Part shown: positions 18,197 through 53,862 of the stretch, one piece after another
Layout: each line of letters opens with the position of its first letter
How positions within the stretch are numbered: the stretch's first letter is position 1
Assembly (NCBI GenBank): GCA_963555705.1
Contig: OY743190.1
Location: forward strand, 14,235,501-14,299,500
From: Ligustrum vulgare
Lineage: Eukaryota; Streptophyta; Magnoliopsida; Lamiales; Oleaceae
Direction of reading: 5' to 3'
DNA: 64,000 nt
Translations under genes and position numbers: made by a program
Notes under the pieces: generated by a model
Database searches by the model: none
Told to the model about the DNA's origin: nothing
What the model saw: the letters and a program-made list of their open reading frames with translations, nothing else

Positions 18197-18246
<50 letters not shown>

Positions 18247-20093: not shown

Positions 20094-20098
20094 TATTT

Positions 20099-24215: not shown

Positions 24216-24934
24216 TGTAATACCGCTTTTTCGTTTTACGGGATTTCATGGATTTCGCGTAATTTTTCTATTAATGCCTCTATTAATCATTAGTGACATT
24301 ATTATTGTTGATAATTATTTGAATTATTTTGCAGTGGAAGGATTTGGACGCCGTCTCGCTCGATGTGCCAATTAGAAAATTATAAATTTGTTTACTTGCA
24401 ATTTATGTGAATAATTGTTTTATTTCCTAAGCTTGCCAATTTCTATTTTTGTCAAATTATTATAAGTGGTAAATTTTAGGGTATTTTGTAAATTTATGAT
24501 AGATGTGTACTTAATTTTGAAACTTAGGGAGAATGAGGGACTAAATTGCAAATTCCCAAAATATAAACTTTAAACCTAATCTAATCCCTCAATCTCACAA
24601 TCGACGTCTCACTCTCACTCTACGCTCTCTTTGCCTCTGTGCTCTCTCTGTCTCTCGCGGCTCTCTCTGTCTCTCGCCCTCACCGAACCTCTCCCGGCGA
24701 CGGCGACCGCACACCTCGCCCACAACCACGGTGACTTCCCCTTCCCCTCTCACACGCTCACACACACAAAAATCGGACACACACACTCACGAATTTTCAC
24801 ACCCACACACACGGTTGAAAGTATTGACTATATGTATATATTGATGCATATATGGAATTGATGTATATGTATACTTGTATATGTTTCTGTGTATGTATAT
24901 ATTGATGTATATGTATATTGTGTATGTGTGTGTG

Positions 24935-24990
<56 letters not shown>

Positions 24991-30988: not shown

Positions 30989-31708
30989 TGTAATACCGCT
31001 TTTTCGTTTTACGGGATTTCATGGATTTCGCGTAATTTTTCTATTAATGCCTCTATTAATCATTAGTGACATTATTATTGTTGATAATTATTTGAATTAT
31101 TTTGCAGTGGAAGGATTTGGACGCCGTCTCGCTCGATGTGCCAATTAGAAAATTATAAATTTGTTTACTTGCAATTTATGTGAATAATTGTTTTATTTCC
31201 TAAGCTTGCCAATTTCTATTTTTGTCAAATTATTATAAGTGGTAAATTTTAGGGTATTTTGTAAATTTATGATAGATGTGTACTTAATTTTGAAACTTAG
31301 GGAGAATGAGGGACTAAATTGCAAATTCCCAAAATATAAACTTTAAACCTAATCTAATCCCTCAATCTCACAATCGACGTCTCACTCTCACTCTACGCTC
31401 TCTTTGCCTCTGTGCTCTCTCTGTCTCTCGCGGCTCTCTCTGTCTCTCGCCCTCACCGAACCTCTCCCGGCGACGGCGACCGCACACCTCGCCCACAACC
31501 ACGGTGACTTCCCCTTCCCCTCTCACACGCTCACACACACAAAAATCGGACACACACACTCACGAATTTTCACACCCACACACACGGTTGAAAGTATTGA
31601 CTATATGTATATATTGATGTATATATGGAATTGATGTATATGTATACTTGTATATGTTTCTGTGTATGTATATATTGATGTATATGTATATTGTGTATGT
31701 GTGTGTGC

Positions 31709-31753
<45 letters not shown>

Positions 31754-33626
31754 TTCAGATTTTTAAAATTATATGGATAGATTTCAAATCTCAAAATTCG
31801 TGAAATTGTTAGTTTAATTGAAATGTTTAGTTGTATTTCGAATTTATGAGATTAGTTAATTGTTTAAATTTTTACTTTCTGATTGGAAATTGTAATTGTT
31901 AGATTTAAGAGTTTATTTGGAACTTAAAGTTAGAATTTCAGATTTTTGGAATTTATTAATGCAGGTTATTTTAACTGATTTTATTTTTAATTTGAGACAT
32001 TAATTATAATCAGGTTGTTTGAACTGAATTTCAATGTATTATAATTGTTATTTTCAGATTTCTGAGTAATTAAGACGCTAATTGAAATTGTCCATGTGAC
32101 AATTAAGTTGTGATAATATTGAGTAGTTTTGACTTTTGAATAATTTGATAAGTAAGATTTCGATGTTTCTTAACCTTGAATTTAAATACTTATTTCGAAG
32201 GTGATAGTATATGTCTTTGACATGATTTAAGGACACGTTTGAGTTAAATTGTGAGTCTAATAGAAATGTTAACCTCAGTTATGAGTTTTGTTTATAATAT
32301 TGAATAGGATGATGAACGTGTTTGTTTCAAATCTAAAGTTATACCTTATTTATGAATGGATATAATTAGGAATTTTGGTACATTGACGTCACGAGCATCC
32401 GAGACTCTTCCACTTGCAAATTCAGAAACGGTAAATTACTAAGGACTACAGGTAAGTAAACTTCCCCCTATTTTCATCAAAGTTGAATGTTAATGTGGAA
32501 TTAATGTGCTTAATTGACATTCGTGTTAATTACGGAATTTTAATGCTTTTGGTCTACCATGTGCAATTATGTGTAGTTAAGGAAATGTTCAAGCATGCAC
32601 GTTACATGTCATTGCACCATCAAGCATGCATTGGCATCGAAATGGGAAAGTCAAATGTTTTAATGAAAGGAATGTGTCAAAGTGCAATTTTTGTCAAAAA
32701 TTATGTATCCCAAGTTTTTGAAAGAATGGGTGTACTTCTATGTCATGAAAGATGCGAGTGGGAAATGGGGCGCGGGGGACCGGCGTACCCGAAGGTAATG
32801 AGCCGCTTTGCGGTGGAATGAATGTAATGAGCCGCTTTGCGGTGGAATGAAGTGAATGTTAAACCGCTTTGCGGTGGAAATGCGCATGTTAATCTGGTTC
32901 CAAATAAGAATGGCCCACTGTTATCTGATTGACTAGAAGTTACATCAAGTGAGCTCACGATGGAATGAAGTGAAGTTTTGAAATGTTAAGTGAAAGTTCG
33001 AAAAGTTTGAAAGTTCTGGAAAGTAAAGTAAATGGGGATACATACATGGAATTTTTGAAAAGCATTCATGTCATAAGCATGCATTCATGCATACAGTTTA
33101 CTTACTGAGCTTTAGCTCACCCCAATTCCTCCCCAACATTTCAGGTGATGAAAGTTAGGTGATCCGAGGAGGGCACTCGGCAGCTGACTCAGGCTATACC
33201 CGCATCAACTCTTTTAAAATAAAGTTAAATTAGAATTTATTTCAATTTCTAATTATTAATCCTTTAATTCATGTATTATTGAGGTTAAATTATCTCTTAT
33301 TTCATTTGCTAAAGTTTATTTACTTGGAATTGTATTGTTGAGGAGTTTGGGACTTATTATAATGGTTTGGATGATGTTTGGGATGGAGTGAGTTGTGATG
33401 TGTATTTATAAATGGTTTTGATGCTCCTCTACAGGTTGGCTATGTCCAATTTATAGAGGAGACTCTGCCGAAATTTCGCTAAAATTTTATAATAGATAAA
33501 GAACATTTTTGTCGTGTAAACGATTTAAATTCCGCATCGTTTAATGTTTAAACGATTTATTTCCGCATTAAAAGAAAAAGGGAAGTTAACACCTAGGTTT
33601 AGGGTTCTTGAACTTGGGGTGTTACA
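30989..33626 (+). repeat. Family-A LTR 3
   Basis: 2638 bp. Carries the 29-bp duplication near 32820 and two private C-to-T changes (near 31620 and 32471). Its TA run is shorter than in LTR 2. Confidence 0.93.
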
Positions 33627-35983: not shown

Positions 35984-37490
35984 ATGAATGAAAGTCACGA
36001 CGATGTTAACCCTCGTAGGAGTAGAAATGACCAACACAGTGAGGAAGAGGCTCCCCAGAGGCCTCGTGAGAACACAAATGAGGGGGTGGTCCAACCTAAC
36101 CCTCCACGCCGTCACCGAAATCGCCGCATGCTGGGATATATGACTCGCATGGCAGCCCAGATGTTGGAAATGCAGAAACAGCAGATAGAACAAACTGCTG
36201 CGATGAATGCCTAGATGGCTAGAGGGTATGTTTTTAATCGAATAGGATGGTAATTCAGGGGCAAGCGAGGGGGCCGATATGATCAAGGTCGGCGCAATGC
36301 AACTGAGCCTAGAATAGGCGAGAGAGACGAGCTAAAGAAGCCCGATCACGGAGCCCAATGCATAGAGACTAGTATGATACAGGGGCAAAAAAATTGGCCC
36401 CCGCACATGAGCCTAGGAATAGGCGGGAAAGAATGGCAGAAGCAGTTAGGACCAAATCTCATGATGGCCTTCCGACTTTTGAAAGGCCAAACTACGGCCG
36501 AGTTTTGCCACCACGAGGACAGGATTACGCTCAACGGCCCTACGACCCATACCATGACTCGATGCACTCCAACCATGAAGAAAACAATGAATTACCGTCA
36601 TACGAGCTGGATGATGAAGAGGAAATCAGCCCCTTTACGGAGGGCATCCAAAAGTGCCCAGTGCTCTATGACTTTGAAATGCCAGAAATAACAAAGTATT
36701 CTGGCCGAGGTGACCCCGATGATCACCTGTTAAACTATCGCGCTAGCATGGAAATAGTCGGAGCCACTCCGGCACTGAAGTGCAAAGCCTTTGCTTTGAC
36801 CTTTGAGGGAAATGCAATACGGTGGTATAAAAAACTCCCTCCTGGTAGCATACACAGTTGGAGAGATTTGAAGGCAGCCTTCAAAAATGGCTTTGTTTCC
36901 TCCAGGCCCGGCAAGCTCCCACTCCAGTGTCTTTAGGACTTAAGGCAAGGAAGGGAGGAATCTTTGAAAAGCTACCTAACTCGGTTTACTGAAGAGATGC
37001 ACATTTGTGAGAACATCACCGAGGCGGAGATGTTTTCTGCAGTGAAGGGAGGCCTAGACATGACGAGCATGTTTTGGAGGGTTGTCCGAAGCAGAAAGCA
37101 GAGGGATTACAATACCCTAGTAGATTTGATGAAGGAAGAGATCGTCTCATAAGAAATGGCTAGGGCCAGAGACAACCATCCTCAAGGGAGATACAATCTT
37201 GGATACCCCAATGAAGCGAACCATAGGAAAGGAGGTAATAAGGATAGGTTTGGCAGTAACTAAAGTGGAGCGCCACGTCTATTTCCTGGAACCGGGTCAA
37301 GTTATGCAGCGGAGATCACGGAGGCTATTCCTAACTTGCACTCCAATGCTCCCACCTCGAATCCCCCCACAGCTCATGGAAGAATGGAAGGTATCCGAAG
37401 TGGAAAGCAACCTATGATTGGGGCTTACTGCGCATACCATAGGTATTATGGCCACGCGACGAAAGATTGTAGGGAAATCCACATGTTAGC
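35984..37490 (+). pseudogene. C gag, copy 1
   Basis: The N-terminal part (35984-36214) is hydrophilic. After shifts, the Retrotrans_gag domain follows (36394-37150), with YSGRGDPDDHLLNYRASMEI, WYKKLPPGSIHSW and LTRFTEEMHI. The knuckle at 37429-37470, CAYHRYYGHATKDC, is the CX2HX4HX4C form typical of Tat/Ogre gag. TAG at 36934-36936 replaces a sense codon, and TAA at 37150-37152 is a second stop. The part from 36628 onward is repeated at 50272. Confidence 0.88.
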
Positions 37491-37850
37491 GGACCAAAAG
37501 ACACACTGAAGAAGGGGAGCTGACTTCTCTCCTGACAAAGGAAAGACGCAAAAGCCAGGTAACCAAAAGTTTAACCGAACTGACAGGCGAGCTCCGTGGA
37601 AGAACCCAACGAAGGAAAGGATTGACGTTCGTCAAAGAGACAGGGGCAAGGGTCATGAGAACTCCCCGGCACATGCTAAAGATACGAGGGAACCACCTAT
37701 GCCTAAAAATGATCCGTCGATTCACGAAATCGACACGATATTGGGAGGCCCCTATCCAGGTGGAAGCACAAATAACTCCCAGAAGTAGTATATCAGAGAG
37801 GCCAAGCAGCCCACCAACGTGAATATCACATCCATTCGCATTCTGTTGGG

Positions 37851-38216
37851 ATGCCTCGGATGGAATCTATCATATTTACCCAGGATGACGCTATTGTGGT
37901 GCATTTCCCGCATAATGACGCTTTGGTTATACGGGTAGTGGTAGCTCGGAATGGATTGTCACAAATGTTGGTGGATGATGGTGCCTCGGTAAACGTGATT
38001 TATGGAGTAACTTTTGATAAAATGGGGATTAGCACCCCACTCATCCCAGTCCCAGATCTAATATATGGATTCACTGGGGACAGGATAACTCCTAGAGGAT
38101 CCATAACCCTCATGACTGAGGTAGGGCAAGCACTAACTTTCTCCAGAATCCCCATGGAATTCTTGATTGTAGACAAAATCTCCTCTTATCATGGCATACC
38201 AAATACATTTGCATGA
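37851..38216 (+). pseudogene. C protease, copy 1
   Basis: A retropepsin-like domain: HFPHNDALVIRVVVARNGL, then MLVDDGASVNVIY at the active site (family VDGGSS/VDTGAS) and GFTGDRITPRGSI. It stops at a place where the usual ILGRP segment is missing, while the following frame resumes with KFPTEHGVATVKG. A small deletion and frameshift therefore lie near 38195. Confidence 0.85.
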
Positions 38217-38670
38217 AATTCCCTACAGAGCATGGCGTAGCAACTGTCAAGGGGAGCCAAACTGAATCACGGGCCTGTTACACAAACGCAATTCAGAAAT
38301 TTCAAGACCGGAGCTTGAACATGATTAGTGACGTGGCAATGGCCGAGGCTTCTCCAAACCCTGAAAGACTGGGTGAAGGGCCCTCAGAAAGTGAAGATGT
38401 TACAATGACGCCGGAAAAGGATCTAGCAGACCTAGACCCAAGAATAGTCGGGGACAATTGCTCTACCCCAGATTGGACTGGATTTGTCGATTGAGGACGT
38501 ATTTGCATGGAAACATGATGACATGATTGGAATTGATCCAAGAAGTCATAGGCACATGCAAAAAAGAAGACCGATGAGTTCTGATAAATATGAGGCCTTG
38601 AAAGAAGAGGTAACAAAGCTATTGAAAAATGGCTTTATTAGAGAATCTCGATATCCGAAGTGGGTATCAA

Positions 38671-41600
38671 TGTAGCGCCCCGAGTTCCGTATACCCGATT
38701 CACTACGTCATTTTCTGTCTAAATTTTTCCTTTAATATTTTTTTGCGGAAGAAATAGTTGAAATTCATTTTTGGCAACATTAAATAAACTGTAATGGCCG
38801 CTAAAATTGAAAATATTTATGAAACCATTTGAAATAGTAAATAGAACCATTAATATTGTAAAGAAATTGCCAATATCATAATTTCTCAAATAAATGAACT
38901 TCTCTAAATTATTCGATTGTTTGGAAAATACGAAAATCATTAACGTCAAACTTTCAACCGTTTAACGATTATTGCCACCATCATTCATCGCTCGCCACCG
39001 TCTCCGAAATCTGCAAAACTGTTAAAAAGTAGGGTGAGTATTTCATGGGAGAAATACTCAGTAGACTCATCGCGAATTAATTTAATTTATAAGATGATTA
39101 AACACATAAATCCCGGCTCTTTATAAAACGGGCATTGATAGAGCTTCTTTATAAAACGGCTCTTGATAAAACTCATATTTTGCATTACAGCACGGGACAT
39201 ATTTTGCAAATCATAGGCTCTTTGAAAATAGCTCTTTGAAAACCATATACTTATAAAAAACATTTTAATTATGCCAAGCATAATTTCTTTTGAAAGCATA
39301 ACATAAGATAGGATTGAAATCCTCATAAACATAATAAGACACAAGAACTTTACCGAACTTAGGTGGCAAGAATTCTTATGCAGTAAAATCATAATAACAG
39401 TAAGTTTTCATCATAACATAGGATAATATCGAAATCCTCATAAACATAAGAATTTTACCGAACTTAGGTGGCAAGAATTCTTATGTAGTAAGTCATAATA
39501 ACAGTAAGATCATAATAACAGTAAGATCATAATAACAGTAAGTATACCAAAACATAATTCATGAAATTCATAGGGATCATTTCCATCATAACATAAGATA
39601 GGATCGAAATCCTCATAAACATACGCGACAGGAATTTTACCGAACTTAGGTGGTAAATCCTCATAAACATATGGAAAGGCAGGAATTTTACCGAACTTAG
39701 GTGGTAAATCCTCATAAACTTATGGAGACACAGAATTCTACCGAACTTAGGTGGTAAGAATTCTTATGTGCATAGCAATGATCCAAAACATATAAAACAT
39801 TATCGTAAAAACATAGGGTATACTTACTTTTCATAAAAACATAAGGTATATTTACCTTTCATAAAACATACTTAATTTTCTTGAAAATTGACTTTCACAA
39901 GTCACATGACATTTATATGAAATCATAATTTAAATCAATTAATAAGTGCGAGTCTACCTCAAATCCGACGAGTGCAAAGTTGAGCGGGAATGACTTCAAT
40001 TTCTTTAAATTCTCCGTACGCTTCGTCTTAAGCCAATAAGTCACTTTAGTATATCGAATATATAGTTCAAAATGATAAATTATAATTTGAGGACTAAAAT
40101 TGATGTTTTGAAAGTTGAGGGACTAAAATGAATACTTTTGAAAGTTCAGGGACTAAAATAGATATTTTGAAAGTTGAGGGATTAAAATGAATACTTTTGA
40201 AACTTGGGCTTAAAATCAAATTAATAAAATCAGCAGGGACTGAAATAATAGATTTTGAAAATGAAAGGGCTGATATTGATAAGTTTAAAACTAAAAGGAC
40301 TGAACTAAAACATTTTCAAACTTGAGGACTAATTTGCAAATTCTGAAAAGTTAAAATATATTCTCAGATTTTCTTTCTCTCTCTCGACACTATTCTCTCT
40401 CTCACTCACCTCGCACGACCAGAGAAGAAAAGGGCGGAGGAGGCGATTCAAGCCAAAATCCGACCTTCAGCCGGTGACTCGCCGGCGCAACACCGGCGCT
40501 GGGTGCGGCAAAAGGTGGTTAAATAGGGTTGTCAAGTTTGGGTAGATTTGGTACAAATTTTGGTGCGAAATCGAAGAGTGACCCGAGGCTAGGGTTCGCG
40601 ATTTGGAGTTGCTGATTCACAGTGAAGGGAGCGGCGATTTGAAGTAAGTATTTGGGCTTGGCTTAATCTGGGTTTTGGGTTTTGATTTTGGATTGCGATT
40701 GGAGTTGGGTTTGATGTTGAGCAGTAGGCAGTAGGTGTTTTGGTGTATCGATTATGGCAGATTGAGGGATTTGATCGTGCAGTGGTGTTGGTGGAAGAGG
40801 TGATACAGATTGGTGGTGATTCTGGGGCAGTGACTGAGGTTCGATCGGCAATAGAGGTGGCTGCGAGCCATGGCAGTGAACTGGTTTGGCAGTGATGATC
40901 ATGGGTTGTGCAGTTAGTGAAAATCTGATGATGATGCTGGTTGATAGTGATGATGATGATTGATTACAGATTGATGTATATGATGAAAGTTGCGGCTGTG
41001 GGTTGTCTTGCAGGTTGATGCCAATACGATGATGATGAAAGTTCATGGCTGAAAAATTGAGTAATGACAGTGATGGTTGTATTGTTATAATGATGGAAAA
41101 TACTGATTGGGTGAAGGTGGTATTGATAATAGCAGCGTTGGTGGATGATGGTTGCTGCTTGATTCGGTGGTGGTGAATTGGCCGTGGCAGTGAGAAGTTT
41201 GGGTTGGGTTCTTGGTTGCAGGTTATGGTTGCAGTGAGGTTGGTTACAGCTGCTAGGCTGCAATGAAGTTGGAAGGAGGCTGTTGAAATGGAGTCTGAAT
41301 GTTGTGTTGGCCATGAATGAGGATGGTGAATTGTTGGTTGTATATGTATAGATTTTATCAGCCTAATTCCTATCTCACGATCTCCCAAACTTTCCAGTCT
41401 GTTCTCTCCATGTAGTGATAATGTGTAAAGAGAGGAAGCATATGAAAAAGAAAGAAAAAGAAAGAAAGAAAATGGTTAATGGGGTGGGGAATCATGATGA
41501 AGAATATTTGGTGTTTGCTTTGATGGTGGATATCATTGCTGTGAACGTGATGGGAAATTCACGGTAGTGTTTGGTGGAGATATAAGTTGAAAATGAGGTG

Positions 41601-42015
41601 GAAAGGAGAATAAAAAGAAATGCAAAACGTGGGAAGTAATCAACTGAAAATTAGACTAACTTTGATTAAGAAATGTATTTAAAACAGATATATTTTGGAC
41701 TGAAAAATACATTTGAGAAGTAAGTAAATTTTGAGATAAAATTGGATTTCGTATTTAGACTTGAAATAATTTGATAAGGATCATTGGGATATTTTAATAA
41801 ATTTGGAATTCAAAATGATTTTGAAAATAATATTAAAATAACATAATTTTAGAAATTCGGATTTTAATTTAAAATCGAACAAATTCGATATTTCTTGACT
41901 TGACTAGACGAATCCGTCGCGGCGTTAACTTCAAAATAATAAATGAAATAGTAGCGACACAATTTTCTAAATATTAAAATAATTATTTATTGCATAAAAA
42001 TTCTGAGTCGCTATA
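38671..42015 (-). repeat. Element B 3' LTR
   Basis: 3345 bp from TGTAGCGCCCCGAG to GAGTCGCTATA in plus coordinates. On the element's own strand it starts TATAGCG, so the first dinucleotide is TA rather than TG. It contains GGGACTAAAATG repeats (40080-40330) and a repeat cluster at 39290-39760. Confidence 0.95.
39290..39760. repeat. Repeat cluster in the B LTR with TTACC...GGTAA cores
   Basis: The core TACCGAACTTAGGTGG recurs at about 39351, 39455, 39637, 39689 and 39739. It is often preceded by CATAAGATAGGATCGAAATCC-type sequence and CCTCATAAACAT. The core has complementary ends (TTACC/GGTAA). The same cluster is in the other LTR at about 46050-46520. Confidence 0.85.
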
Positions 42016-42600
42016 ATCTTACCTCCTTAAAAATAATTTCGTCCTCGAAATTAAACTTACTTAATCTTATAATTTCTGAATACTTAATCAGAATCTCTTT
42101 TTCTTATCATCGAATTATTCTCAAAATAATCAAAACAATTCCCAATCGTATGTAAAAATTTCATCATATCTTGTAGTATCGTATCATGTGACCTCAAATA
42201 TTCGTATATATCTCTAAAATTTCAACAAATCTTTACTGACATATCGTATCATAATAATTTTTCCTTTCTTATCATCGAAAATTCCAAAAATAATCAAAGA
42301 ATTTCCTGAATATCTTCTCTACGTAATATACCCAAAACTAAGATTCTATACTTAAATGTCACCATATTTCCTGCAAAGTATTTCTTTCACTTGTATATAC
42401 GTATGAATTCTGATTCAATACGGTACTCATTTTACTTTCCACGTATCATCACACTATACCAAGATTATCATTATTAAAACAAAATATCAGTACCCATAAT
42501 CCAAGAAAATATTCCAAATCTCCAATCAAATCTCCTTTATCGATAAAATTTAACAGCGCATTACTTCTTGTCTCCTCTTTTCATTAAAATAATCCTGCGC
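42016..42600 (-). pseudogene. B internal region, 3' part, decayed family-A-like sequence
   Basis: Read on the minus strand, it resembles family-A internal sequence near 21880-22040 (both have TATATTACGTAGAGA-like and AGTAAAGATTT-like stretches in order). It contains no usable frame and ends in the purine tract AAGGAGGTAAG next to the LTR. Confidence 0.65.
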
Positions 42601-42646
42601 TTTCTTGCTGGTTACAACATCACGCGGATTCACTCAGATCCTTTGC

Positions 42647-42658
42647 GCTTTTAAATAG
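42647..42658 (+). promoter_or_regulatory. TTTAAATAG box before the cysteine-rich ORF
   Basis: GCTTTTAAATAG lies 33 bp before the ATG at 42691. The same box (GGCTTTAAATAG, 43497-43508) precedes the LOG ORF. It may be a TATA-like element or a signal from the source genome. The spacing is short for a TATA box. Confidence 0.4.
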
Positions 42659-42690
42659 TTCATGCTGAGAAGAGGTTGAATCATCAAACA

Positions 42691-43242
42691 ATGGATATCA
42701 TTCTTTCTAACATTCGCAAGTATTATTCCAGTCTTCCTATGAATGATCTGAGAAAGATCTATAAAATAAGGCTCGAAAGATTGAGGTTGCTAATGGCTCA
42801 TGATGTTCCAGAAGATGTTCGCTGGTTGATAGAAGCAAAGGTTCGACTATCTGGTGAATTACCATCAACATTTCCAAAGCACATGCCTGGTTTAGGCAAA
42901 AGCACGTTTGCAAAGAAACGAAGAGCAAAAAGACTGGGTGGTTGCTACAAATGTGCTCGTTGGAATTGTGATACTCGTTGCAAATCAGTAGGATATTCTT
43001 CTACTAATCGGGATGATAAAATCGAATTCATAAAGGGTGGACTGAGTAAGGAGTCTTTGGATGATATTCGACTGACTCTTGAGACGCACCCAAGTGGTTA
43101 TGTACAACGTGAACTTCTCTCCTTATACGCTCAGTTTAACGAGGACAAAAATCGTTATAGTCTCCAAAATATAATATCGAAAGATCCTGTTTGCCAGTCT
43201 GTTTTACAAAATGAGGCTTCTGGCAGTTCAGCAATGATATAA
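42691..43242 (+). CDS. Basic cysteine-rich protein resembling Betaflexiviridae nucleic-acid-binding protein
   Basis: An intact 183-codon ORF. The first in-frame ATG is 42691. Residues 70-82, GKSTFAKKRRAKR, form an arginine/lysine-rich block directly before four cysteines at 85, 88, 93 and 97 (CX2CX4CX3C). DDKIEFIKGG follows at 109-117. This block order (basic patch, zinc-finger-like cysteines, then a D-hydrophobic-F-[IV]-K-x-G segment) is that of the small nucleic-acid-binding proteins encoded near the 3' end of vitiviruses and carlaviruses, some of which suppress RNA silencing. The N- and C-terminal parts are longer than is usual there and I recognise nothing in them. The ORF is antisense to its carrier, element B. 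It is probably a captured viral gene; a cellular zinc-binding protein remains possible. Confidence 0.6.
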   Translation: MDIILSNIRKYYSSLPMNDLRKIYKIRLERLRLLMAHDVPEDVRWLIEAKVRLSGELPSTFPKHMPGLGKSTFAKKRRAKRLGGCYKCARWNCDTRCKSVGYSSTNRDDKIEFIKGGLSKESLDDIRLTLETHPSGYVQRELLSLYAQFNEDKNRYSLQNIISKDPVCQSVLQNEASGSSAMI

Positions 43243-43283
43243 GGTAAATCTTTTTAAAATATTTTGCTGCTTTCTTTCACGCG

Positions 43284-43385
43284 TTTTGGAAATAAAATAT
43301 ATTTTCCTTTCTCGAGGTTTGATAAAGCTGGAAATAAATATATTTTTCTTTTCTCGAGGTTTGATAAAGCTGGAAATAAATATTA
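43284..43385 (+). repeat. Duplicated 45-bp intergenic segment
   Basis: TTTCTCGAGGTTTGATAAAGCTGGAAATAAATAT occurs twice, at about 43306 and 43351, and the AAATAAA/TATATTTT part a third time at about 43288. It lies between the two ORFs, 100-200 bp upstream of the second TTTAAATAG box. Confidence 0.8.
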
Positions 43386-43496
43386 AATCGCCGAAAGGTG
43401 ACAGCCTCGATACGATAAAAATATTCAAAAGTGGGCTGATTTTGTCAAAAGTAAATCTTTACTTTTCAGAATCAATCAAAAACAGTAAATTTTTCC

Positions 43497-43510
43497 GGCT
43501 TTAAATAGCC
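43497..43510 (+). promoter_or_regulatory. TTTAAATAG box before the LOG-like ORF
   Basis: GGCTTTAAATAGCC is a small perfect stem (GGCT/AGCC) around a TATA-like core, 72 bp before the ATG. The spacing fits a plant TATA box with a leader of about 45 bp (about 43535-43582). Confidence 0.5.
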
Positions 43511-43582
43511 AAACATATTTCATAGTTCAGGCATCCCAAAATCACATCTTCTTCGTAAGTTTTCCTTTCTTTACTATCAAAG

Positions 43583-44236
43583 ATGGAAGCACCAAAACTT
43601 CGACAGATCAAAACTATTTGTGTATTTTGTGGATCAAAAGTGGGGAAAGGCTTCGGTTATCTAGAAGCGGCTGTAGATCTTGGAAAGAAACTGGGGGAAA
43701 AAGGTATCACTCTTGTATATGGGGGTGGTAGCAGTGGTCTAATGGGTTGTGTTTCCCAATCTGCTCTTGCAGAGAAATCAAAAGTAATCGGTGTCATACC
43801 TGTCCCTTTCGTAGATGTTGCAGGCAAAACACGAGGGCATGAAGTTCAAACCTTATCCATCCATGAACGCATAACTTGTATGCTATATGGTTCTGATGCC
43901 TTTATAGCCCTGCCCGGAGGTTTTGGTACCTTAGAAGAAATCTTTAACATTACCTCGTGGGCTCAACTAGATCTCCATACTAAGCCTATTGGGCTTCTGA
44001 ATGTTAACAATTTCTTTGATGGTTTGTTAACCTTTCTTGATTATGCTGTGGAACAGGGATTCATCTCTCCATTTTCCAGAAGGCTTCTTATTTCTGCTCC
44101 TACTATTGATGAACTACTGGATAAGCTGCAGTCATATATCTCAATACAAGATCCAGCAGGAGTTAAAATAGATTGGTCGCAAGGAAGGGGAATCAAGCGA
44201 AAATGGAGTCCGGTTAATGTAAACTTAACTCTTTGA
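43583..44236 (+). CDS. LOG-like cytokinin riboside 5'-monophosphate phosphoribohydrolase, intronless, inside element B
   Basis: An intact 217-codon ORF. LOG enzymes release active cytokinin bases from their riboside monophosphates in the cytosol. Visible family features: ICVFCGSKVGKG near the N-terminus, the Rossmann-type YGGGSSGLMG (46-55), Arg96 in HERITCM, and the signature PGGFGTLEE (111-119) with its catalytic Glu. TSWAQLDLHTKPIGLLNV and EQGFISP follow as in plant LOG proteins. Length is normal for the family. Plant LOG genes have several introns; this copy has none, which fits an RNA-derived copy. The segment 72-90 (IPVPFVDVAGKTRGHEVQT) differs from the usual plant sequence, so it is a divergent member. 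It has its own TATA-like box and polyadenylation signal and reads against the carrier element. Confidence 0.9.
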   Translation: MEAPKLRQIKTICVFCGSKVGKGFGYLEAAVDLGKKLGEKGITLVYGGGSSGLMGCVSQSALAEKSKVIGVIPVPFVDVAGKTRGHEVQTLSIHERITCMLYGSDAFIALPGGFGTLEEIFNITSWAQLDLHTKPIGLLNVNNFFDGLLTFLDYAVEQGFISPFSRRLLISAPTIDELLDKLQSYISIQDPAGVKIDWSQGRGIKRKWSPVNVNLTL

Positions 44237-44246
44237 ATCTTAGAAT

Positions 44247-44458
44247 AGGTGGGGGTAGAGTACGGAGTATTCTCACTCTCGAGACACCCCTCCATTTACT
44301 AGGATTTCCTTAATGTTTAAATCTTGTGTGTACTTCAAAGATTCCAGGTGGTAGATTACGGAGTATTCTTACTCTCGAAACACACCTCTTTGAAGGTTTC
44401 TTTATTTCCTCAAAAGATCAGAGGTGGTAGGATACGGCTACTCCGGAAACACATCTCT
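44247..44458 (+). other. Three related stem-loops downstream of the LOG-like ORF
   Basis: Stem-loops at 44247-44293, 44346-44387 and 44421-44458 share GGTGG, TAGA/TAGG, TACGG, GGAGTATTCT-like loops and AAACAC-ATCTC-type 3' arms. In the first, GGGGT pairs with ACCCC and AGAGT with ACTCT. In the second, AGGTG pairs with CACCT. In the third, GAG.TG pairs with CA..CTC and GGA with TCC. Pairing is kept although the sequence changes, which argues for a structured RNA 3' end. Confidence 0.6.
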
Positions 44459-44556
44459 CATTCTGAGGATCTTTCCATGTTTTTCTCTTATGCTTTCGTG
44501 TTTTTCATGTATTTCCTTTCCAGTGTGACTCTTGTGTGTTCTCCTTATGAGAAAAT

Positions 44557-44562
44557 AATAAA
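44557..44562 (+). terminator. Polyadenylation signal after the cassette
   Basis: AATAAA lies 320 bp after the LOG-like stop codon and about 100 bp after the third stem-loop, close to the estimated end of the foreign segment (about 44610). Confidence 0.5.
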
Positions 44563-44609
44563 ATCTCTGCTATCATCTACTAAATCTCGTTTGTGATGTA
44601 AATGATCTT

Positions 44610-45430
44610 GCATGTCTAACCTTAATTCCTTTAGTGGATGCTTATCATATTATGCTCTTAATTCCAAATGATAAAATTCTGGATAGAGTCTCCCTTGTAA
44701 TTTGGACTTATCCAAACCATAAGCATACTTCATAACTCACAATAATAAATAACTCCACATTTGATCACAACGATCTAAAAATATTGAAAACGATTCCAAC
44801 ACTTCAATATCATCAAAATATCCCATAATTCAATTCATAATTCCTCAACATAGAAATTTCAAATCATATTTTTCAATATCACAATATTACTTCCTTCCAT
44901 ACCTTAATTGGCTCAAAAGTTACTCATACTTATAAATATATGCCATAAATCATATTCCCAAAATTTATTCACAAAGCCAAACTTCATAATAAATTTCTCT
45001 TCAACATAGAGGCATAATAAATTAACTCAACATAATATCCATTACTTAATTCTCAATAAAATCATATTATTCCCATTATGCTCAACACTCGTTTTCTTTA
45101 AAAAAAATTTCTCATAATCATACATTAAAGCATATAAGTTATGACAAAGCATAACAACATCATTATTTTCGAAGAAATACATTCTTATTTCTCATAAATC
45201 ATAAATATCCGAAATACTCTTCATTCTTTCTCATAAATCAATAAAATGAGTATTCGAAATACTGAAATAACTTTAAACATTATAAACTTCTTTACCTCGG
45301 AGTTGGTGGAGCGAAATGATGGCAGTGGCAATCTTCATAAATAAAAATCTTATAATGGAAAATATTTCTTAAAATTCTTTTTGAAAATTTTACCAGTCTA
45401 CAGAAACGCAGACTAGCTCTGATACCAACT
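44610..45430 (-). pseudogene. B internal region, 5' part, decayed family-A-like sequence and leader
   Basis: On the minus strand, about 44940-44830 resembles family-A internal bases 21475-21590: both read TATAAGTATGA, then TTTGAGCCAATTAA, GGAAGGAAGT and GTTGAGGAATTA in order. Towards 45430 the leader next to the primer site matches that at 11691-11855. There are no coding frames. Confidence 0.7.
45416..45427 (-). other. Element B primer-binding site
   Basis: The reverse strand reads TGGTATCAGAGC, an exact initiator-Met tRNA site, three bases from the 5' LTR. Confidence 0.93.
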
Positions 45431-48400
45431 TGTAGCGCCCCGAGTTCCGTATACCCGATTCACTACGTCATTTTCTGTCTAAATTTTTCCTTTAATATTT
45501 TTTTGCGGAAGAAATAGTTGAAATTCATTTTTGGCAACATTAAATAAACTGTAATGGCCGCTAAAATTGAAAATATTTATGAAACCATTTGAAATAGTAA
45601 ATAGAACCATTAATATTGTAAAGAAATTGCCAATATCATAATTTCTCAAATAAATGAACTTCTCTAAATTATTCGATTGTTTGGAAAATACGAAAATCAT
45701 TAACGTCAAACTTTCAACCGTTTAACGATTATTGCCACCATCATTCATCGCTCGCCACCGTCTCCGAAATCTGCAAAACTGTTAAAAAGTAGGGTGAGTA
45801 TTTCATGGGAGAAATACTCAGTAGACTCATCGCGAATTAATTTAATTTATAAGATGATTAAACACATAAATCCCGGCTCTTTATAAAACGGGCATTGATA
45901 GAGCTTCTTTATAAAACGGCTCTTGATAAAACTCATATTTTGCATTACAGCACGGGACATATTTTGCAAATCATAGGCTCTTTGAAAATAGCTCTTTGAA
46001 AACCATATACTTATAAAAAACATTTTAATTATGCCAAGCATAATTTCTTTTGAAAGCATAACATAAGATAGGATTGAAATCCTCATAAACATAATAAGAC
46101 ACAAGAACTTTACCGAACTTAGGTGGCAAGAATTCTTATGCAGTAAAATCATAATAACAGTAAGTTTTCATCATAACATAGGATAATATCGAAATCCTCA
46201 TAAACATAAGAATTTTACCGAACTTAGGTGGCAAGAATTCTTATGTAGTAAGTCATAATAACAGTAAGATCATAATAACAGTAAGATCATAATAACAGTA
46301 AGTATACCAAAACATAATTCATGAAATTCATAGGGATCATTTCCATCATAACATAAGATAGGATCGAAATCCTCATAAACATACGCGACAGGAATTTTAC
46401 CGAACTTAGGTGGTAAATCCTCATAAACATATGGAAAGGCAGGAATTTTACCGAACTTAGGTGGTAAATCCTCATAAACTTATGGAGACACAGAATTCTA
46501 CCGAACTTAGGTGGTAAGAATTCTTATGTGCATAGCAATGATCCAAAACATATAAAACATTATCGTAAAAACATAGGGTATACTTACTTTTCATAAAAAC
46601 ATAAGGTATATTTACCTTTCATAAAACATACTTAATTTTCTTGAAAATTGACTTTCACAAGTCACATGACATTTATATGAAATCATAATTTAAATCAATT
46701 AATAAGTGCGAGTCTACCTCAAATCCGACGAGTGCAAAGTTGAGCGGGAATGACTTCAATTTCTTTAAATTCTCCGTACGCTTCGTCTTAAGCCAATAAG
46801 TCACTTTAGTATATCGAATATATAGTTCAAAATGATAAATTATAATTTGAGGACTAAAATTGATGTTTTGAAAGTTGAGGGACTAAAATGAATACTTTTG
46901 AAAGTTCAGGGACTAAAATAGATATTTTGAAAGTTGAGGGATTAAAATGAATACTTTTGAAACTTGGGCTTAAAATCAAATTAATAAAATCAGCAGGGAC
47001 TGAAATAATAGATTTTGAAAATGAAAGGGCTGATATTGATAAGTTTAAAACTAAAAGGACTGAACTAAAACATTTTCAAACTTGAGGACTAATTTGCAAA
47101 TTCTGAAAAGTTAAAATATATTCTCAGATTTTCTTTCTCTCTCTCGACACTATTCTCTCTCTCACTCACCTCGCACGACTAGAGAAGAAAAGGGCGGAGG
47201 AGGCGATTCAAGCCAAAATCCGACCTTCAGCCGGTGACTCGCCGGCGCAACACCGGCGCTGGGTGCGGCAAAAGGTGGTTAAATAGGGTTGTCAAGTTTG
47301 GGTAGATTTGGTACAAATTTTGGTGCGAAATCGAAGAGTGACCCGAGGCTAGGGTTCGCGATTTGGAGTTGCTGATTCACAGTGAAGGGAGCGGCGATTT
47401 GAAGTAAGTATTTGGGCTTGGCTTAATCTGGGTTTTGGGTTTTGATTTTGGATTGCGATTGGAGTTGGGTTTGATGTTGAGCAGTAGGCAGTAGGTGTTT
47501 TGGTGTATCGATTATGGCAGATTGAGGGATTTGATCGTGCAGTGGTGTTGGTGGAAGAGGTGATACAGATTGGTGGTGATTCTGGGGCAGTGACTGAGGT
47601 TCGATCGGCAATAGAGGTGGCTGCGAGCCATGGCAGTGAACTGGTTTGGCAGTGATGATCATGGGTTGTGCAGTTAGTGAAAATCTGATGATGATGCTGG
47701 TTGATAGTGATGATGATGATTGATTACAGATTGATGTATATGATGAAGGTTGCGGCTATGGGTTGTCTTGCAGGTTGATGCCAATACGATGATGATGAAA
47801 GTTCATGGCTGAAAAATTGAGTAATGACAGTGATGGTTGTATTGTTATAATGATGGAAAATACTGATTGGGTGAAGGTGGTATTGATAATAGCAGCGTTG
47901 GTGGATGATGGTTGCTGCTTGATTCGGTGGTGGTGAATTGGCCGTGGCAGTGAGAAGTTTGGGTTGGGTTCTTGGTTGCAGGTTATGGTTGCAGTGAGGT
48001 TGGTTACAGCTGCTAGGCTGCAATGAAGTTGGAAGGAGGCTGTTGAAATGGAGTCTGAATGTTGTGTTGGCCATGAATGAGGATGGTGAATTGTTGGTTG
48101 TATATGTATAGATTTTATCAGCCTAATTCCTATCTCACGATCTCCCAAACTTTCCAGTCTGTTCTCTCCATGTAGTGATAATGTGTAAAGAGAGGAAGCA
48201 TATGAAAAAGAAAGAAAAAGAAAGAAAGAAAATGGTTAATGGGGTGGGGAATCATGATGAAGAATATTTGGTGTTTGCTTTGATGGTGGATATCATTGCT
48301 GTGAACGTGATGGGAAATTCACGGTAGTGTTTGGTGGAGATATAAGTTGAAAATGAGGTGGAAAGGAGAATAAAAAGAAATGCAAAACGTGGGAAGTAAT

Positions 48401-48775
48401 CAACTGAAAATTAGACTAACTTTGATTAAGAAATGTATTTAAAACAGATATATTTTGGACTGAAAAATACATTTGAGAAGTAAGTAAATTTTGAGATAAA
48501 ATTGGATTTCGTATTTAGACTTGAAATAATTTGATAAGGATCATTGGGATATTTTAATAAATTTGGAATTCAAAATGATTTTGAAAATAATATTAAAATA
48601 ACATAATTTTAGAAATTCGGATTTTAATTTAAAATCGAACAAATTCGATATTTCTTGACTTGACTAGACGAATCCGTCGCGGCGTTAACTTCAAAATAAT
48701 AAATGAAATAGTAGCGACACAATTTTCTAAATATTAAAATAATTATTTATTGCATAAAAATTCTGAGTCGCTATA
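45431..48775 (-). repeat. Element B 5' LTR
   Basis: 3345 bp, the same length as the 3' LTR. Differences noticed include 40400/47180 and two changes near 40987/47747. The stop-poor CA-rich minus-strand frame present in the 3' LTR (40663-41388) is broken here by one of these changes, which argues against a functional protein. Confidence 0.95.
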
Positions 48776-49324
48776 ATCAAACCCTGTTTTGGTCCCAAAG
48801 CAGAATGGGAAATTGAGAGTATGTATTGATTTCTCGAATTTAACCAGGCATGCCCTAAAGACAGTTTTCCCCTGCCTCGGATTGATCAATTAGTCGACTC
48901 TACAGTGGGACATGAGGTGCTGAGCTTTATGGATGCATACTCCGGATACAATCAGATCCCCATGCATGAATCGAACGAGGAGCACACCTCGTTTATCACG
49001 GACAGGGGTCTCTATTGTTATAAAGCTATGCCGTTTGGTTTAAAAAATGCCGAAGCCACCTACCAAAGGTTGGTAAATCGTATGTTTTCAGAACAGCTGA
49101 GAAACACCATGGAAGTATATGTCGATGACATGCTAGTCAAGAGTATGGTCGCCACAGAGAATTTCCGCCTTCTATCAGAGGCCTTTGACATTCTGAGAAG
49201 ATATCGAATGAAGCTCAATCCTGCGAAATGCGCCTTTAGAGTAGCTTCCGAAAACTTTCTTGGATTCATGGTGAACCGAAGAGGAATTGAAGCCAATCTG
49301 GATTAGATCAAAGCTCTACTAGAC

Positions 49325-50271
49325 ATGCGCTCTCCCCGGAGCCCAAAAGAAGTGCAAAGCTTAATGGGAAGAATTGCGACCTTAAATCAGTTCGTTTCTA
49401 AGTCCACAGATAAATGCTTGCCATTTTTTAAAGTCTTGAAGGGAGGGAAGCGATTTCAATGGACCCCGGACTGTGAGCAAGCCTTTTCCGACCTGAAATC
49501 ATTCCTGGGGCAGGCTCCACTATTATCAAAACCAAAGGCTGGTGAACCACTCTCTCTGTATTTATCCATATCAAAAGAAGCTGTTAGCTCAGTATTGGTC
49601 AGAGAGGAGGATGGGAATCATTTCCCAGTGTATTATGTAAGCAAAGCTATGCTGGATGCAGAAGCACGTTACCCTGATATGGAAAAATTTGCTTTCGCGT
49701 TGATTACGGCAGCTCGCAAACTCCGCCCCTACTTTCAGTCGCACTCCATACATGTTCTCACAAACTTTCCTATGAGACAAGTATTACAGAAACCAGATGT
49801 ATCTGGGAGGCTAATGAAGTGGACGATAGAAATCAGCCAGTATGACCTACATTATGAACCTCGGACAGCTATAAAGGGTCAAGCATTAGCAGATTTCATA
49901 GTTGATTCACGCATCCGCCCGAGGTGGAAATGATTGATAACACGGAGGATAGCCGTGAGTGGAAATTGTTCGTTGATGGGTCCTCGGTTGAAGGAAGATC
50001 CGAGGTGGGAATACTACTAATGAGTCCAGAAGGATACAAACTGCACAGTGTGATCCGCTTCGACTTTAAAGCCTCAAACAATGTTGCAGAGTACGAGGCG
50101 CTCTTAGCTGGACTAAGGCTTGCGAAAGCTCTAAAGATTAAGTCTGTAGTGGCAAATAGTGACTCACAGCTTGTAGTAAGCCAGTTTAACGGGCAGTTTT
50201 CTGCCAAAGAGCCGGCCATGGTTGCCTACTTGAAGAAAGTGAAAGATTTAACCGTGCATTTCGGAAAAATA
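49325..50271 (+). pseudogene. C RNase H and archaeal-type RNase H, copy 1, truncated
   Basis: Residues from MRSPRSPKEVQSLMGRIATL through FQWTPDCEQAF and PVYYVSKAMLDAEARYP are the Ty3 connection/RNase H. WKLFVDGSSVEGRSEVGILL and NNVAEYEALLAGLRLAK are the second, archaeal-type RNase H of Tat/Ogre elements. At 50271 the frame jumps from VHFGKI into gag (SPFTEGIQKC), forming a chimeric 218-codon frame at the duplication junction. Confidence 0.9.
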
Positions 50272-51140
50272 AGCCCCTTTACGGAGGGCATCCAAAAGTG
50301 CCCAGTGCTCTATGACTTTGAAATGCCAGAAATAACAAAGTATTCTGGCCGAGGTGACCCCGATGATCACCTGTTAAACTATCGCGCTAGCATGGAAATA
50401 GTCGGAGCCACTCCGGCACTGAAGTGCAAAGCCTTTGCTTTGACCTTTGAGGGAAATGCAATACGGTGGTATAAAAAACTCCCTCCTGGTAGCATACACA
50501 GTTGGAGAGATTTGAAGGCAGCCTTCAAAAATGGCTTTGTTTCCTCCAGGCCCGGCCAGCTCCCACTCCAGTGTCTTTAGGACTTAAGGCAAGGAAGGGA
50601 GGAATCTTTGAAAAGCTACCTAACTCGGTTTACTGAAGAGATGCACATTTGTGAGAACATCACCGAGGCGGAGATGTTTTCTGCAGTGAAGGGGGGCCTA
50701 GACACGACGAGCATGTTTTGGAGGGTTGTCCGAAGCAGAAAGCAGAGGGATTACAATACCCTAGTAGATTTGATGAAGGAAGAGATCGTCTCATAAGAAA
50801 TGGCTAGGGCCAGAGACAACCATCCTCAAGGGAGATACAATCTTGGATACCCCAATGAAGCGAACCATAGGAAAGGAGGTAATAAGGATAGGTTTGGCAG
50901 TAACTAAAGTGGAGCGCCACGTCTATTTCCTGGAACCGGGTCAAGTTATGCAGCGGAGATCACGGAGGCTATTCCTAACTTGCACTCCAATGCTCCCACC
51001 TCGAATCCCCCCACAGCTCATGGAAGAATGGAAGGTATCCGAAGTGGAAAGCAACCTATGATTGGGGCTTACTGCGCATACCATAGGTATTATGGCCACG
51101 CGACGAAAGATTGTAGGGAAATCCACATGTTAGCGGACCA
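50272..51140 (+). pseudogene. C gag, copy 2, lacking its N-terminus
   Basis: It starts at the duplication junction (SPFTEGIQKC) and repeats the gag core, with the same TAG at 50578-50580 and TAA at 50794-50796 as copy 1. The knuckle CAYHRYYGHATKDC is at 51073-51114. The shared stops show that gag was dead before the duplication. Confidence 0.88.
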
Positions 51141-51494
51141 AAAGACACACTGAAGAAGGGGAGCTGACTTCTCTCCTGACAAAGGAAAGACGCAAAAGCC
51201 AGGTAACCAAAAGTTTAACCGAACTGACAGGCGAGCTCCGTGGAAGAACCCAACGAAGGAAAGGATTGACGTTCGTCAAAGAGACAGGGGCAAGGGTCAT
51301 GAGAACTCCCCGGCACATGCTAAAGATACGAGGGAACCACCTATGCCTAAAAATGATCCGTCGATTCACGAAATCGACACGATATTGGGAGGCCCCTATC
51401 TAGGTGGAAGCACAAATAACTCCCAGAAGTAGTATATCAGAGAGGCCAAGCAGCCCACCAACGTGAATATCACATCCATTCGCATTCTGTTGGG

Positions 51495-51860
51495 ATGCCT
51501 CGGATGGAATCTATCATATTTACCCAGGATGACGCTATTGTGGTGCATTTCCCGCATAATGACGCTTTGGTTATACGGGTAGTGGTAGCTCGGAATGGAT
51601 TGTCACAAATGTTGGTGGATGATGGTGCCTCGGTAAACGTGATTTATGGAGTAACTTTTGATAAAATGGGGATTAGCACCCCACTCATCCCAGTCCCAGA
51701 TCTAATATATGGATTCACTGGGGACAGGATAACTCCTAGAGGATCCATAACCCTCATGACTGAGGTAGGGCAAGCACTAACTTTCTCCAGAATCCCCATG
51801 GAATTCTTGATTGTAGACAAAATCTCCTCTTATCATGGCATACCAAATACATTTGCATGA
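51495..51860 (+). pseudogene. C protease, copy 2
   Basis: Same translation as copy 1, including the active-site MLVDDGASVNVIY and the truncation before the ILGRP segment. Acidic linker sequence follows at 51857-52138. Confidence 0.85.
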
Positions 51861-52127
51861 AATTCCCTACAGAGCATGGCGTAGCAACTGTCAAGGGGAG
51901 CCAAACTGAATCACGGGCCTGTTACACAAACGCAATTCAGAAATTTCAAGACCGGAGCTTGAACATGATTAGTGACGTGGCAATGGCCGAGGCTTCTCCA
52001 AACCCTGAAAGACTGGGTGAAGGGCCCTCAGAAAGTGAAGATGTTACAATGACGCCGGAAAAGGATCTAGCAGACCTAGACCCAAGAATAGTCGGGGACA
52101 ATTGCTCTACCCCAGATTGGACTGGAT

Positions 52128-52840
52128 TTGTCGATTGAGGACGTATTTGCATGGAAACATGATGACATGATTGGAATTGATCCAAGAAGTCATAGGCACA
52201 TGCAAAAAAGAAGACCGATGAGTTCTGATAAATATGAGGCCTTGAAAGAAGAGGTAACAAAGCTATTGAAAAATGGCTTTATTAGAGAATCTCGATATCC
52301 GAAGTGGGTATCAAACCCTGTTTTGGTCCCAAAGCAGAATGGGAAATTGAGAGTATGTATTGATTTCTCGAATTTAACCAGGCATGCCCTAAAGACAGTT
52401 TTCCCCTGCCTCGGATTGATCAATTAGTCGACTCTACAGTGGGACATGAGGTGCTGAGCTTTATGGATGCATACTCCGGATACAATCAGATCCCCATGCA
52501 TGAATCGAACGAGGAGCACACCTCGTTTATCACGGACAGGGGTCTCTATTGTTATAAAGCTATGCCGTTTGGTTTAAAAAATGCCGAAGCCACCTACCAA
52601 AGGTTGGTAAATCGTATGTTTTCAGAACAGCTGAGAAACACCATGGAAGTATATGTCGATGACATGCTAGTCAAGAGTATGGTCGCCACAGAGAATTTCC
52701 GCCTTCTATCAGAGGCCTTTGACATTCTGAGAAGATATCGAATGAAGCTCAATCCTGCGAAATGCGCCTTTAGAGTAGCTTCCGAAAACTTTCTTGGATT
52801 CATGGTGAACCGAAGAGGAATTGAAGCCAATCTGGATTAG
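52128..52840 (+). pseudogene. C reverse transcriptase, copy 2 (uninterrupted)
   Basis: Runs from DVFAWKHDDMIGID through ESRYPKWVSNPVLVPKQNGK to YVDDMLVKS, with the same one-base shift near 52400 and the same TAG at 52838-52840 as copy 1. The unoccupied target of element B, ATCAA, is at 52310-52314. Confidence 0.9.
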
Positions 52841-52858
52841 ATCAAAGCTCTACTAGAC

Positions 52859-53862
52859 ATGCGCTCTCCCCGGAGCCCAAAAGAAGTGCAAAGCTTAATG
52901 GGAAGAATTGCGACCTTAAATCAGTTCGTTTCTAAGTCCACAGATAAATGCTTGCCATTTTTTAAAGTCTTGAAGGGAGGGAAGCGATTTCAATGGACCC
53001 CGGACTGTGAGCAAGCCTTTTCCGACCTGAAATCATTCCTGGGGCAGGCTCCACTATTATCAAAACCAAAGGCTGGTGAACCACTCTCTCTGTATTTATC
53101 CATATCAAAAGAAGCTGTTAGCTCAGTATTGGTCAGAGAGGAGGATGGGAATCATTTCCCAGTGTATTATGTAAGCAAAGCTATGCTGGATGCAGAAGCA
53201 CGTTACCCTGATATGGAAAAATTTGCTTTCGCGTTGATTACGGCAGCTCGCAAACTCCGCCCCTACTTTCAGTCGCACTCCATACATGTTCTCACAAACT
53301 TTCCTATGAGACAAGTATTACAGAAACCAGATGTATCTGGGAGGCTAATGAAGTGGACGATAGAAATCAGCCAGTATGACCTACATTATGAACCTCGGAC
53401 AGCTATAAAGGGTCAAGCATTAGCAGATTTCATAGTTGATTCACGCATCCGCCCGAGGTGGAAATGATTGATAACACGGAGGATAGCCGTGAGTGGAAAT
53501 TGTTCGTTGATGGGTCCTCGGTTGAAGGAAGATCCGAGGTGGGAATACTACTAATGAGTCCAGAAGGATACAAACTGCACAGTGTGATCCGCTTCGACTT
53601 TAAAGCCTCAAACAATGTTGCAGAGTACGAGGCGCTCTTAGCTGGACTAAGGCTTGCGAAAGCTCTAAAGATTAAGTCTGTAGTGGCAAATAGTGACTCA
53701 CAGCTTGTAGTAAGCCAGTTTAACGGGCAGTTTTCTGCCAAAGAGCCGGCCATGGTTGCCTACTTGAAGAAAGTGAAAGATTTAACCGTGCATTTCGGAA
53801 AAATAGAGTTACATCAATTCCCAGAACTGAGAATTCCTATGCAGATGCTTTATCTAAACTAG
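52859..53862 (+). pseudogene. C RNase H and archaeal-type RNase H, copy 2
   Basis: The Ty3 RNase H (52859-53467) overlaps the frame of the second RNase H (53458-53862) by 10 bp. VDGSSVEGRSEVG, NNVAEYEALLAGLR and ANSDSQLVVSQFNGQF are the archaeal-type RNase H motifs, with D, E and D catalytic positions present. It continues past the duplication end into normal pol sequence. Confidence 0.9.

Follow-up and report, generated by a model that had tools for sequence, protein, structure and literature searches.

A LOG-like ORF and a viral NABP-like ORF in antisense orientation within LTR retrotransposons of Ligustrum vulgare

Antisense ORFs and LOG-family domains in plant LTR retrotransposons

Alvarado-Marchena 2022 (PMC9289625), citing Steinbauerova 2011, describes a LOG-family domain (YgdH) in the consensus sequences of long terminal repeat (LTR) retrotransposons from two Citrus species (Citrus sinensis and C. 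clementina) and from Populus trichocarpa. Additional open reading frames (ORFs) lying antisense to the element (aORF-3R) have been described in Grande, RIRE2, Retand and PvRetro13, the antisense ORF region being expressed in Grande and Retand (PMC7264820). We analyzed a stretch of 64,000 nucleotides from Ligustrum vulgare (GCA_963555705.1, contig OY743190.1, forward-strand positions 14,235,501 to 14,299,500), hereafter called the window, in which an LTR retrotransposon, element B, carries two ORFs antisense to itself, one LOG-like and one resembling the viral NABP family. Judging from substitution patterns, we show that purifying selection holds both ORFs in a family of thousands of copies, and that the same module lies antisense in a short-LTR, copia-like family. 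Our overall reading, favored with some reserve, is that element B belongs to the non-autonomous LTR retrotransposons of chromovirus (Ty3/gypsy) type and that a module of two antisense genes has taken the place of its gag-pol.

The Ligustrum module has in common with the Citrus and Populus elements that a LOG-family domain is carried by a plant LTR retrotransposon. Those elements are of the Gypsy type, and the domain is presented as one in a screen, with neither a partner ORF nor the orientation, copy number or tests for selection mentioned in the text consulted, whereas the present case has a viral-type NABP partner, lacks gag-pol and extends to two LTR families. With the aORF-3R elements, the module shares conserved ORFs antisense to the element; however, aORF-3R lie behind gag-pol, their function is given as unknown, and they are described as having no clear similarity to other proteins and none to other transposable elements or viruses (PMC7264820), whereas the present element lacks gag-pol, and named relatives exist for each of its two proteins. 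The cysteine-rich proteins, or NABP, of carla-, allexi- and mandariviruses (PMC12172455) resemble ORF 1 of the module in a core of a zinc finger and a basic stretch, and the profiles PF05515 and PF01623 both score over their cut-offs; ORF 1 differs in that it encodes 183 amino acids within a chromosomal LTR element, is matched by the profile over residues 16-120 only, and stands beside a LOG rather than behind the coat-protein gene of a viral genome. The element LOG (ORF 2), when set against the plant type-I LOGs (At2g37210 and others), shows the same fold family by sequence, the PGGxGTxxE motif and the catalytic Arg and Glu at 49% identity, but has Ile for Lys, no introns, a long branch and mobility. 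Large retrotransposon derivatives (LARDs) possess long LTRs and no gag-pol and are described as non-coding; element B is like LARDs in its long LTRs and missing gag-pol and unlike them in coding on the antisense strand.

In the open literature, covered by titles and the beginnings of abstracts and with most subscription papers lying outside it, the LOG-type (YgdH) domains of Citrus and Populus LTR elements are already known, and we found no report of an NABP in an LTR element, of an NABP and LOG pair as a two-gene module, or of selection on it. Since here one ORF belongs to a plant-virus protein family and the other to a hormone-enzyme family, both with clear signs of selection, the function of the antisense extra ORFs of plant LTR retrotransposons can be tested with two proteins. 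The locus further indicates that selected genes can be carried by elements lacking gag-pol, and that a single gene module can occur in LTR elements of two kinds. Should the enzyme have kept its action on cytokinin, mobile LOG genes in their thousands would bear on plant development and on genome annotation.

Element B, its two ORFs and their copies in the genome

The LTRs of element B, each of 3345 bp, lie on the minus strand at 45431..48775 (5′ LTR) and 38671..42015 (3′ LTR), are 99.91% identical with three mismatches, and are flanked by the target site duplication ATCAA (38666..38670 and 48776..48780). The primer binding site TGGTATCAGAGC (45416..45427, minus strand), which we take to be of the tRNA-Met type, adjoins the 5′ LTR, and a polypurine tract with a chromovirus-type pol end, TTTCGAGGACGAAATTATTTTTAAGGAGG, occupies 42016..42055 (minus strand). 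An LTR pair, a primer binding site, a polypurine tract and a 5-bp target site duplication are thus all present, and the positions of the primer binding site and the polypurine tract place element B on the minus strand, so that the LOG-like ORF is antisense. Between the LTRs, the only open frames of at least 100 amino acids were the NABP-like and LOG-like ORFs, and neither these frames nor reverse transcriptase and integrase queries revealed a recognizable gag or pol. No reverse transcriptase or integrase of the Ty3/gypsy chromovirus kind was therefore found in element B itself, which is placed with the chromoviruses only from its primer binding site type and from a 3′ end that is nearly letter-for-letter that of element A in the same window, where these letters stand behind an integrase C-terminus.

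ORF 2 (43583..44236, plus strand) encodes a LOG-like protein of 217 amino acids, without intron or stop, that has the motif ALPGGFGTLEE, keeps Arg96, Glu118 and Glu119, and bears Ile97 in place of Lys. It matched Pfam Lysine_decarbox (PF03641; E 3.4e-33, 115 bits, cut-off 27) and TIGR00730 (E 8.3e-48, 162.5 bits, cut-off 96.35), and its best relative among solved structures was Arabidopsis At2g37210 (E 4.6e-57). In an alignment of the LOG-like family, 59 rows including a few that are misaligned or broken, Arg96 occurred in 54 and Glu119 in 55; the roles of the catalytic Arg and Glu are taken from PMC5379747.

ORF 1 (42691..43242, plus strand) lies 340 bp upstream of ORF 2 and encodes, from its ATG, a cysteine-rich, viral NABP-like protein of 183 amino acids that scored over the Pfam cut-offs for Viral_NABP (PF05515; E 1.6e-7, 32 bits, cut-off 23) and Carla_C4 (PF01623; E 7e-6, 26.3 bits, cut-off 20.9). 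Both are families of carlavirus cysteine-rich proteins. The matched stretch includes a basic stretch, AKKRRAKRL, followed by a cysteine cluster (C85, C88, C93 and C97), invariant across 18 aligned rows, and all of the 18 NABP-like members chosen matched Viral_NABP (best E 5.8e-11) and Carla_C4 (best 3.3e-6), with E up to 0.01. In 1000 internal regions simulated by a first-order Markov model, the longest six-frame ATG ORF had 167 amino acids and was shorter than both real ORFs. A sequence-only reading of the window had described ORF 2 as an intronless LOG ORF of 217 codons with an intact motif, antisense within a young LTR element with nearly identical LTRs and a perfect target duplication, all of which stands. 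Its statement that every retroelement frame around the ORF was dead does not, as ORF 1, intact and on the same strand, had been overlooked; the LOG-like gene is intact, mobile and antisense as described, but it travels with a viral-type zinc-finger gene as a module of two genes, which occurs in a second LTR family as well.

We searched the genome (1.385 Gb in 51 contigs, the window being C23:14235501-14299500) for further copies. Allowing at most 3 mismatches, we counted 6,493 matches to a LOG pattern of 32 bases, compared with 0 for the reversed control. The LOG was of full length without stops in all 150 places scored (of 9,447 candidates), and of 7,081 candidates for the Viral_NABP profile, all 150 that were scored lay above cut-off, with no match in any of 14 control genomes. 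At 20 loci picked by the NABP profile, LOG-matching DNA was found downstream on the same strand in every case (17 near full length, 3 partial). For family B, 2,331 junctions of the LTR and the primer binding site were counted (control 0), and in a pairing check of 60 mismatch-free junctions on C1 below 56.3 Mb, at least 30 had a LOG copy from our lists at a distance of 0.3-2.6 kb, with side and strand as expected, compared with 1 of 300 shifted controls; because the LOG lists are partial, 30/60 is a lower bound.

Old copies of the module, represented by six 10-kb loci (L041-L046), do not lie in element B. The LTR and inner flanks of element B had no matches longer than 100 bp in these loci, save reverse LTR pieces in L041, for which a finer search yielded one further match of 68 bp. 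In L045, direct repeats of 266 bp (95.1% alike, TGTTGTG...CATAACA) are accompanied by the target duplication ATTTC, and an LTR pair, a primer binding site, a polypurine tract and a target site duplication are all present; L042, L043, L044 and L046 have direct repeats 90-98% alike and 5.9-6.5 kb apart, which brings the loci with direct repeats to five of the six. The polypurine tract AAGGGGGAG and a sequence on the primer binding side, CTCGTGCTGATAACG, were each found in four of the six loci, and the latter presumably matches the anticodon arm of tRNA-Ile. Priming by half a tRNA-Ile is characteristic of the Bianca lineage of Ty1/copia (Neumann 2019, PMC6317226), and by this rule the short-LTR family is likely Bianca, with no match to a reverse transcriptase, of copia type or otherwise, or to an integrase in any of the six loci. 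The genome contains 3,495 short-LTR junctions (control 0), and eight of them picked by the letters of the LTR and primer binding site alone all had module DNA at the expected place (LOG in 7, NABP in 3). The module is antisense in this family, as in family B. In the window, the block common to this family extends from about 42385 to 44512 (plus strand), with ~77-78% identity over 2.1 kb in long matches. We regard it as highly probable that the module is common to two structurally different LTR families.

We computed the ratio of non-synonymous to synonymous substitution rates (dN/dS) by the Nei-Gojobori method between the window copy and 20 old loci, which had been chosen by the NABP profile and not by LOG. 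For LOG (18 of 20 usable, two being too short), dS was 0.38-0.68, dN was 0.030-0.083 and dN/dS was 0.06-0.13, and for the NABP-like ORF (20 of 20 usable), dS was 0.48-0.93 and dN/dS was 0.15-0.22; LOG from six of the short-LTR junction copies gave dN/dS of 0.05-0.11 against the window, with two copies lacking LOG or having half a LOG excluded. The ratios for the 20 old loci are best read as probable upper limits for the source lineage, because the old copies carry decay from after their insertion. In a comparison of subfamilies that kept 14 of 19 young and 12 of 20 old LOG copies (the rest dropped for frameshifts or gaps), synonymous and non-synonymous changes numbered 27 and 6 among differences fixed between subfamilies, compared with 56 and 85 among singletons (p 1.3e-5). 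For NABP codons 1-165, with 16 of 19 young and 18 of 20 old copies kept, the corresponding numbers were 14 and 11 for fixed, 53 and 35 for shared, and 38 and 91 for singleton changes. The old NABPs have different ends, and half of those kept, 9 of 18, are free of stops over these codons; in 19 other copies chosen by LOG identity, without regard to NABP, 36 codons of the NABP ORF varied, 15 of these non-synonymously, and no copy had a stop. On these substitution counts, the pattern is one of selection on a source lineage and drift in single copies, and the module is very probably a real, selected two-gene unit.

Possible action and origin of the module

The presence, structure and selection of the module are shown, and its action is inferred as follows. 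Promoters of its own would drive transcription of the module, opposite to the LTR transcript, and reverse transcriptase and integrase would come in trans from autonomous relatives. The NABP-like zinc-finger protein might work like its viral relatives, by suppression of RNA silencing, by nuclear control of transcription or by both: suppression of RNA silencing is known for viral cysteine-rich proteins, and the one encoded by chrysanthemum virus B works as a transcription factor and induces hyperplasia (PMC12172455). We give an even chance to the NABP part acting on silencing or transcription. The LOG-like enzyme would hydrolyse a nucleoside monophosphate, either a cytokinin ribotide or an altered substrate, and dividing or germ-line-descended cells could thereby become more permissive for the element. 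Jointly, the module would lower silencing and shift growth or nucleotide signalling, to the benefit of elements that borrow their replication proteins. Selection, we think, probably serves the spread of the element itself rather than the host.

Several observations weigh against this reading. ORF 2 scored 107 bits against the NCBI equivalog model NF058542, under the model's own cut-off of 300, and its position 97 is Ile instead of Lys in 56 of the 59 aligned rows. By a strict rule, only 13 of 20 pattern-picked copies were intact for LOG and 13 of 20 for NABP (one of the 20 being retrieved in part), and among 20 old copies, six were intact for LOG and none for NABP. The pairing count of 30/60 does not establish that LOG is present in all copies of family B, and the structure predictions of both module proteins were too poor for use (mean predicted local distance difference test scores of 43 and 34).

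One rival concerns the enzyme: the LOG-like protein may have left cytokinin activation and act on another nucleotide or as a nucleotide-binding sensor, a possibility that we place just short of even. Next to the catalytic Arg, LOG enzymes have an adenine-binding Lys, and at this position, that of Ile97, Lys was found in 78 of 80 bacterial LOGs (the other two unread), in two Arabidopsis LOGs and in two host LOGs. In CgLOGII, replacement of the Lys adjoining the catalytic Arg by Ala (K156A) resulted in the loss of all activity on adenosine monophosphate (PMC5379747), and together these data suggest that the change from Lys to Ile beside the catalytic Arg may have changed the substrate; a stem branch of 1.07 changes per site points in the same direction. 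However, Arg96, Glu119 and PGGxGTxxE are kept, so hydrolysis, as far as the residues indicate, is likely still done. That the LOG-like protein makes free cytokinin, as the sequence-only reading supposed, seems to us less likely than not.

The long stem was observed in a 90-row tree, in which the element LOG grouped with four plant LOGs (99/98) and branched outside the genes of Arabidopsis and the host; the bootstrap had not yet converged, and the tree contains one very long bacterial row and only these four plant LOGs. Ordinary host LOG exons were found at seven places (C11, two on C3, C18, C13, C9 and C7), with 63-86% identity to the At2g37210 segment used, and the two host LOG loci that were read had six and seven exon matches to At2g37210, of 62-100% identity each. 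The element LOG, by comparison, is 49% identical to At2g37210 (Arabidopsis LOG3), no more than to Pseudomonas PA4923 (49%), and a young host retrocopy was rejected for this reason; these identities and the long stem outside the Arabidopsis and host genes indicate that the element LOG is not a recent retrocopy. A direct bacterial origin, prompted by the equal identities, was not supported by the tree, which places the element LOG with plant LOGs.

It is also conceivable, if rather doubtful, that the module derives from an undescribed plant virus, a stretch of which, with a viral NABP and a LOG taken from a host, became integrated and was afterwards multiplied by LTR elements. Outside these elements, the NABP family is viral, ORF 1 scores over the Pfam cut-off, the layout of two ORFs is compact, and the 14 control genomes contain no NABP match. 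However, we saw no further viral gene beside the module, four scans of IMG/VR, a collection that may be poor in plant RNA viruses, found no relative, and the TATA-like boxes suggest DNA-templated expression.

It is unlikely that the ORFs are kept for the plant, that is, by selection on one or a few domesticated source copies that serve the host, the burst being a by-product, even though selection is visible only in the source lineage and single copies drift, with singletons closer to neutral. Both ORFs are kept in two LTR families that still amplified to thousands, and LTR-element sequence stood beside the pair wherever flanks were read (the window, 19 of 19 copies and 10 of 10 ten-kb loci), a survey that did not search for non-mobile copies.

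A host LOG mRNA captured by chance and copied along as a passenger without function seems very improbable to us. Plant LTR elements are known to capture genes (PMC7264820), and many copies have stops or frameshifts, but the LOG dN/dS of 0.06-0.13 at dS near 0.5, the presence of the module in two LTR families, the catalytic residues and I97 kept across both, and the alignment of the ORFs at 77-78% DNA identity where most of the inner flanks of element B have no match in old loci all argue against it. That the ORF might be a single decayed copy, considered in the sequence-only reading, likewise conflicts with the 6,493 pattern matches and with dN/dS far below 1. An assembly artefact, for which the sole point is that LTR arrays are hard to assemble, can be set aside almost entirely and is refuted for the module as such by the thousands of copies, the perfect target duplication and the empty site in the window, and the separate intron-bearing host LOG genes elsewhere in the genome also exclude the misassembly envisaged earlier.

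Sequence signals, age and neighboring elements

A TATA-like sequence, TTTAAATAG, stands 32 bp ahead of the NABP ATG (42650..42658, plus strand), where it was exact in 16 of 16 measurable copies, all of them young, and again 74 bp ahead of the LOG ATG (43500..43508, plus strand), where it was exact in 35 of 52 measurable copies, variant in 15 (for example, TTTAAAAA) and absent in 2. In most of the printed old copies, TTTAAAAAG takes the place of the LOG box. The TATA-like box and polyadenylation signal that the sequence-only reading had assigned to the LOG ORF are both there, the latter as AATAAA at 44557..44562 (plus strand). The interval that it had proposed, 42600-44610, matches a stretch richer in G+C (36-41% in the two-ORF stretch, compared with 27-28% outside), while the block common to the short-LTR family has the limits given above. 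Between the ORFs, a tandem repeat of 43 bp (2.3 units) lies at 43287..43383 (plus strand), and about 42 bases of this region are missing from most of 19 other copies. Behind ORF 2, three imperfect repeats of ~45 nt (44250..44470, plus strand) look hairpin-like by eye and have matches in the short-LTR family; in this region, Rfam returned nothing over threshold, and folding was no better than that of shuffled sequences (z -0.59). In the copy L033, the front of the NABP is of the old type and a later stretch of the young type, suggestive of recombination between subfamilies.

On an assumed plant substitution rate of 1.3e-8 per site and year, the three LTR mismatches correspond to an insertion of element B roughly 35,000 years ago. 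The Ty3 element that it struck is tandemly duplicated over 3.5 kb, with the copies 99.8-100% alike (window positions 36623-38670 and 48776-53805); one copy holds element B, and the second has the empty target site with a single ATCAA at 52310..52314. Element B is probably younger than this duplication. On the element strand, both LTRs (from 42015 and 48775) start with TATAGCG instead of TG, an atypical 5′ terminus, and end with CTACA.

A diverged relative of the junction between the LTR and the primer binding site of element B was found at 11371-14680 of the window, with 73-82% identity in pieces and with long simple GA/CT repeats. Element A (17478-33626) is another non-autonomous chromovirus-type element, the integrase C-terminus being its only recognized domain, and forms an LTR-internal-LTR-internal-LTR array with three LTRs of ~2.6 kb that are 99%+ alike. 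Several LOG copies elsewhere in the genome are spaced 6.5-7.1 kb apart, which suggests that such tandem arrays are also present in family B.

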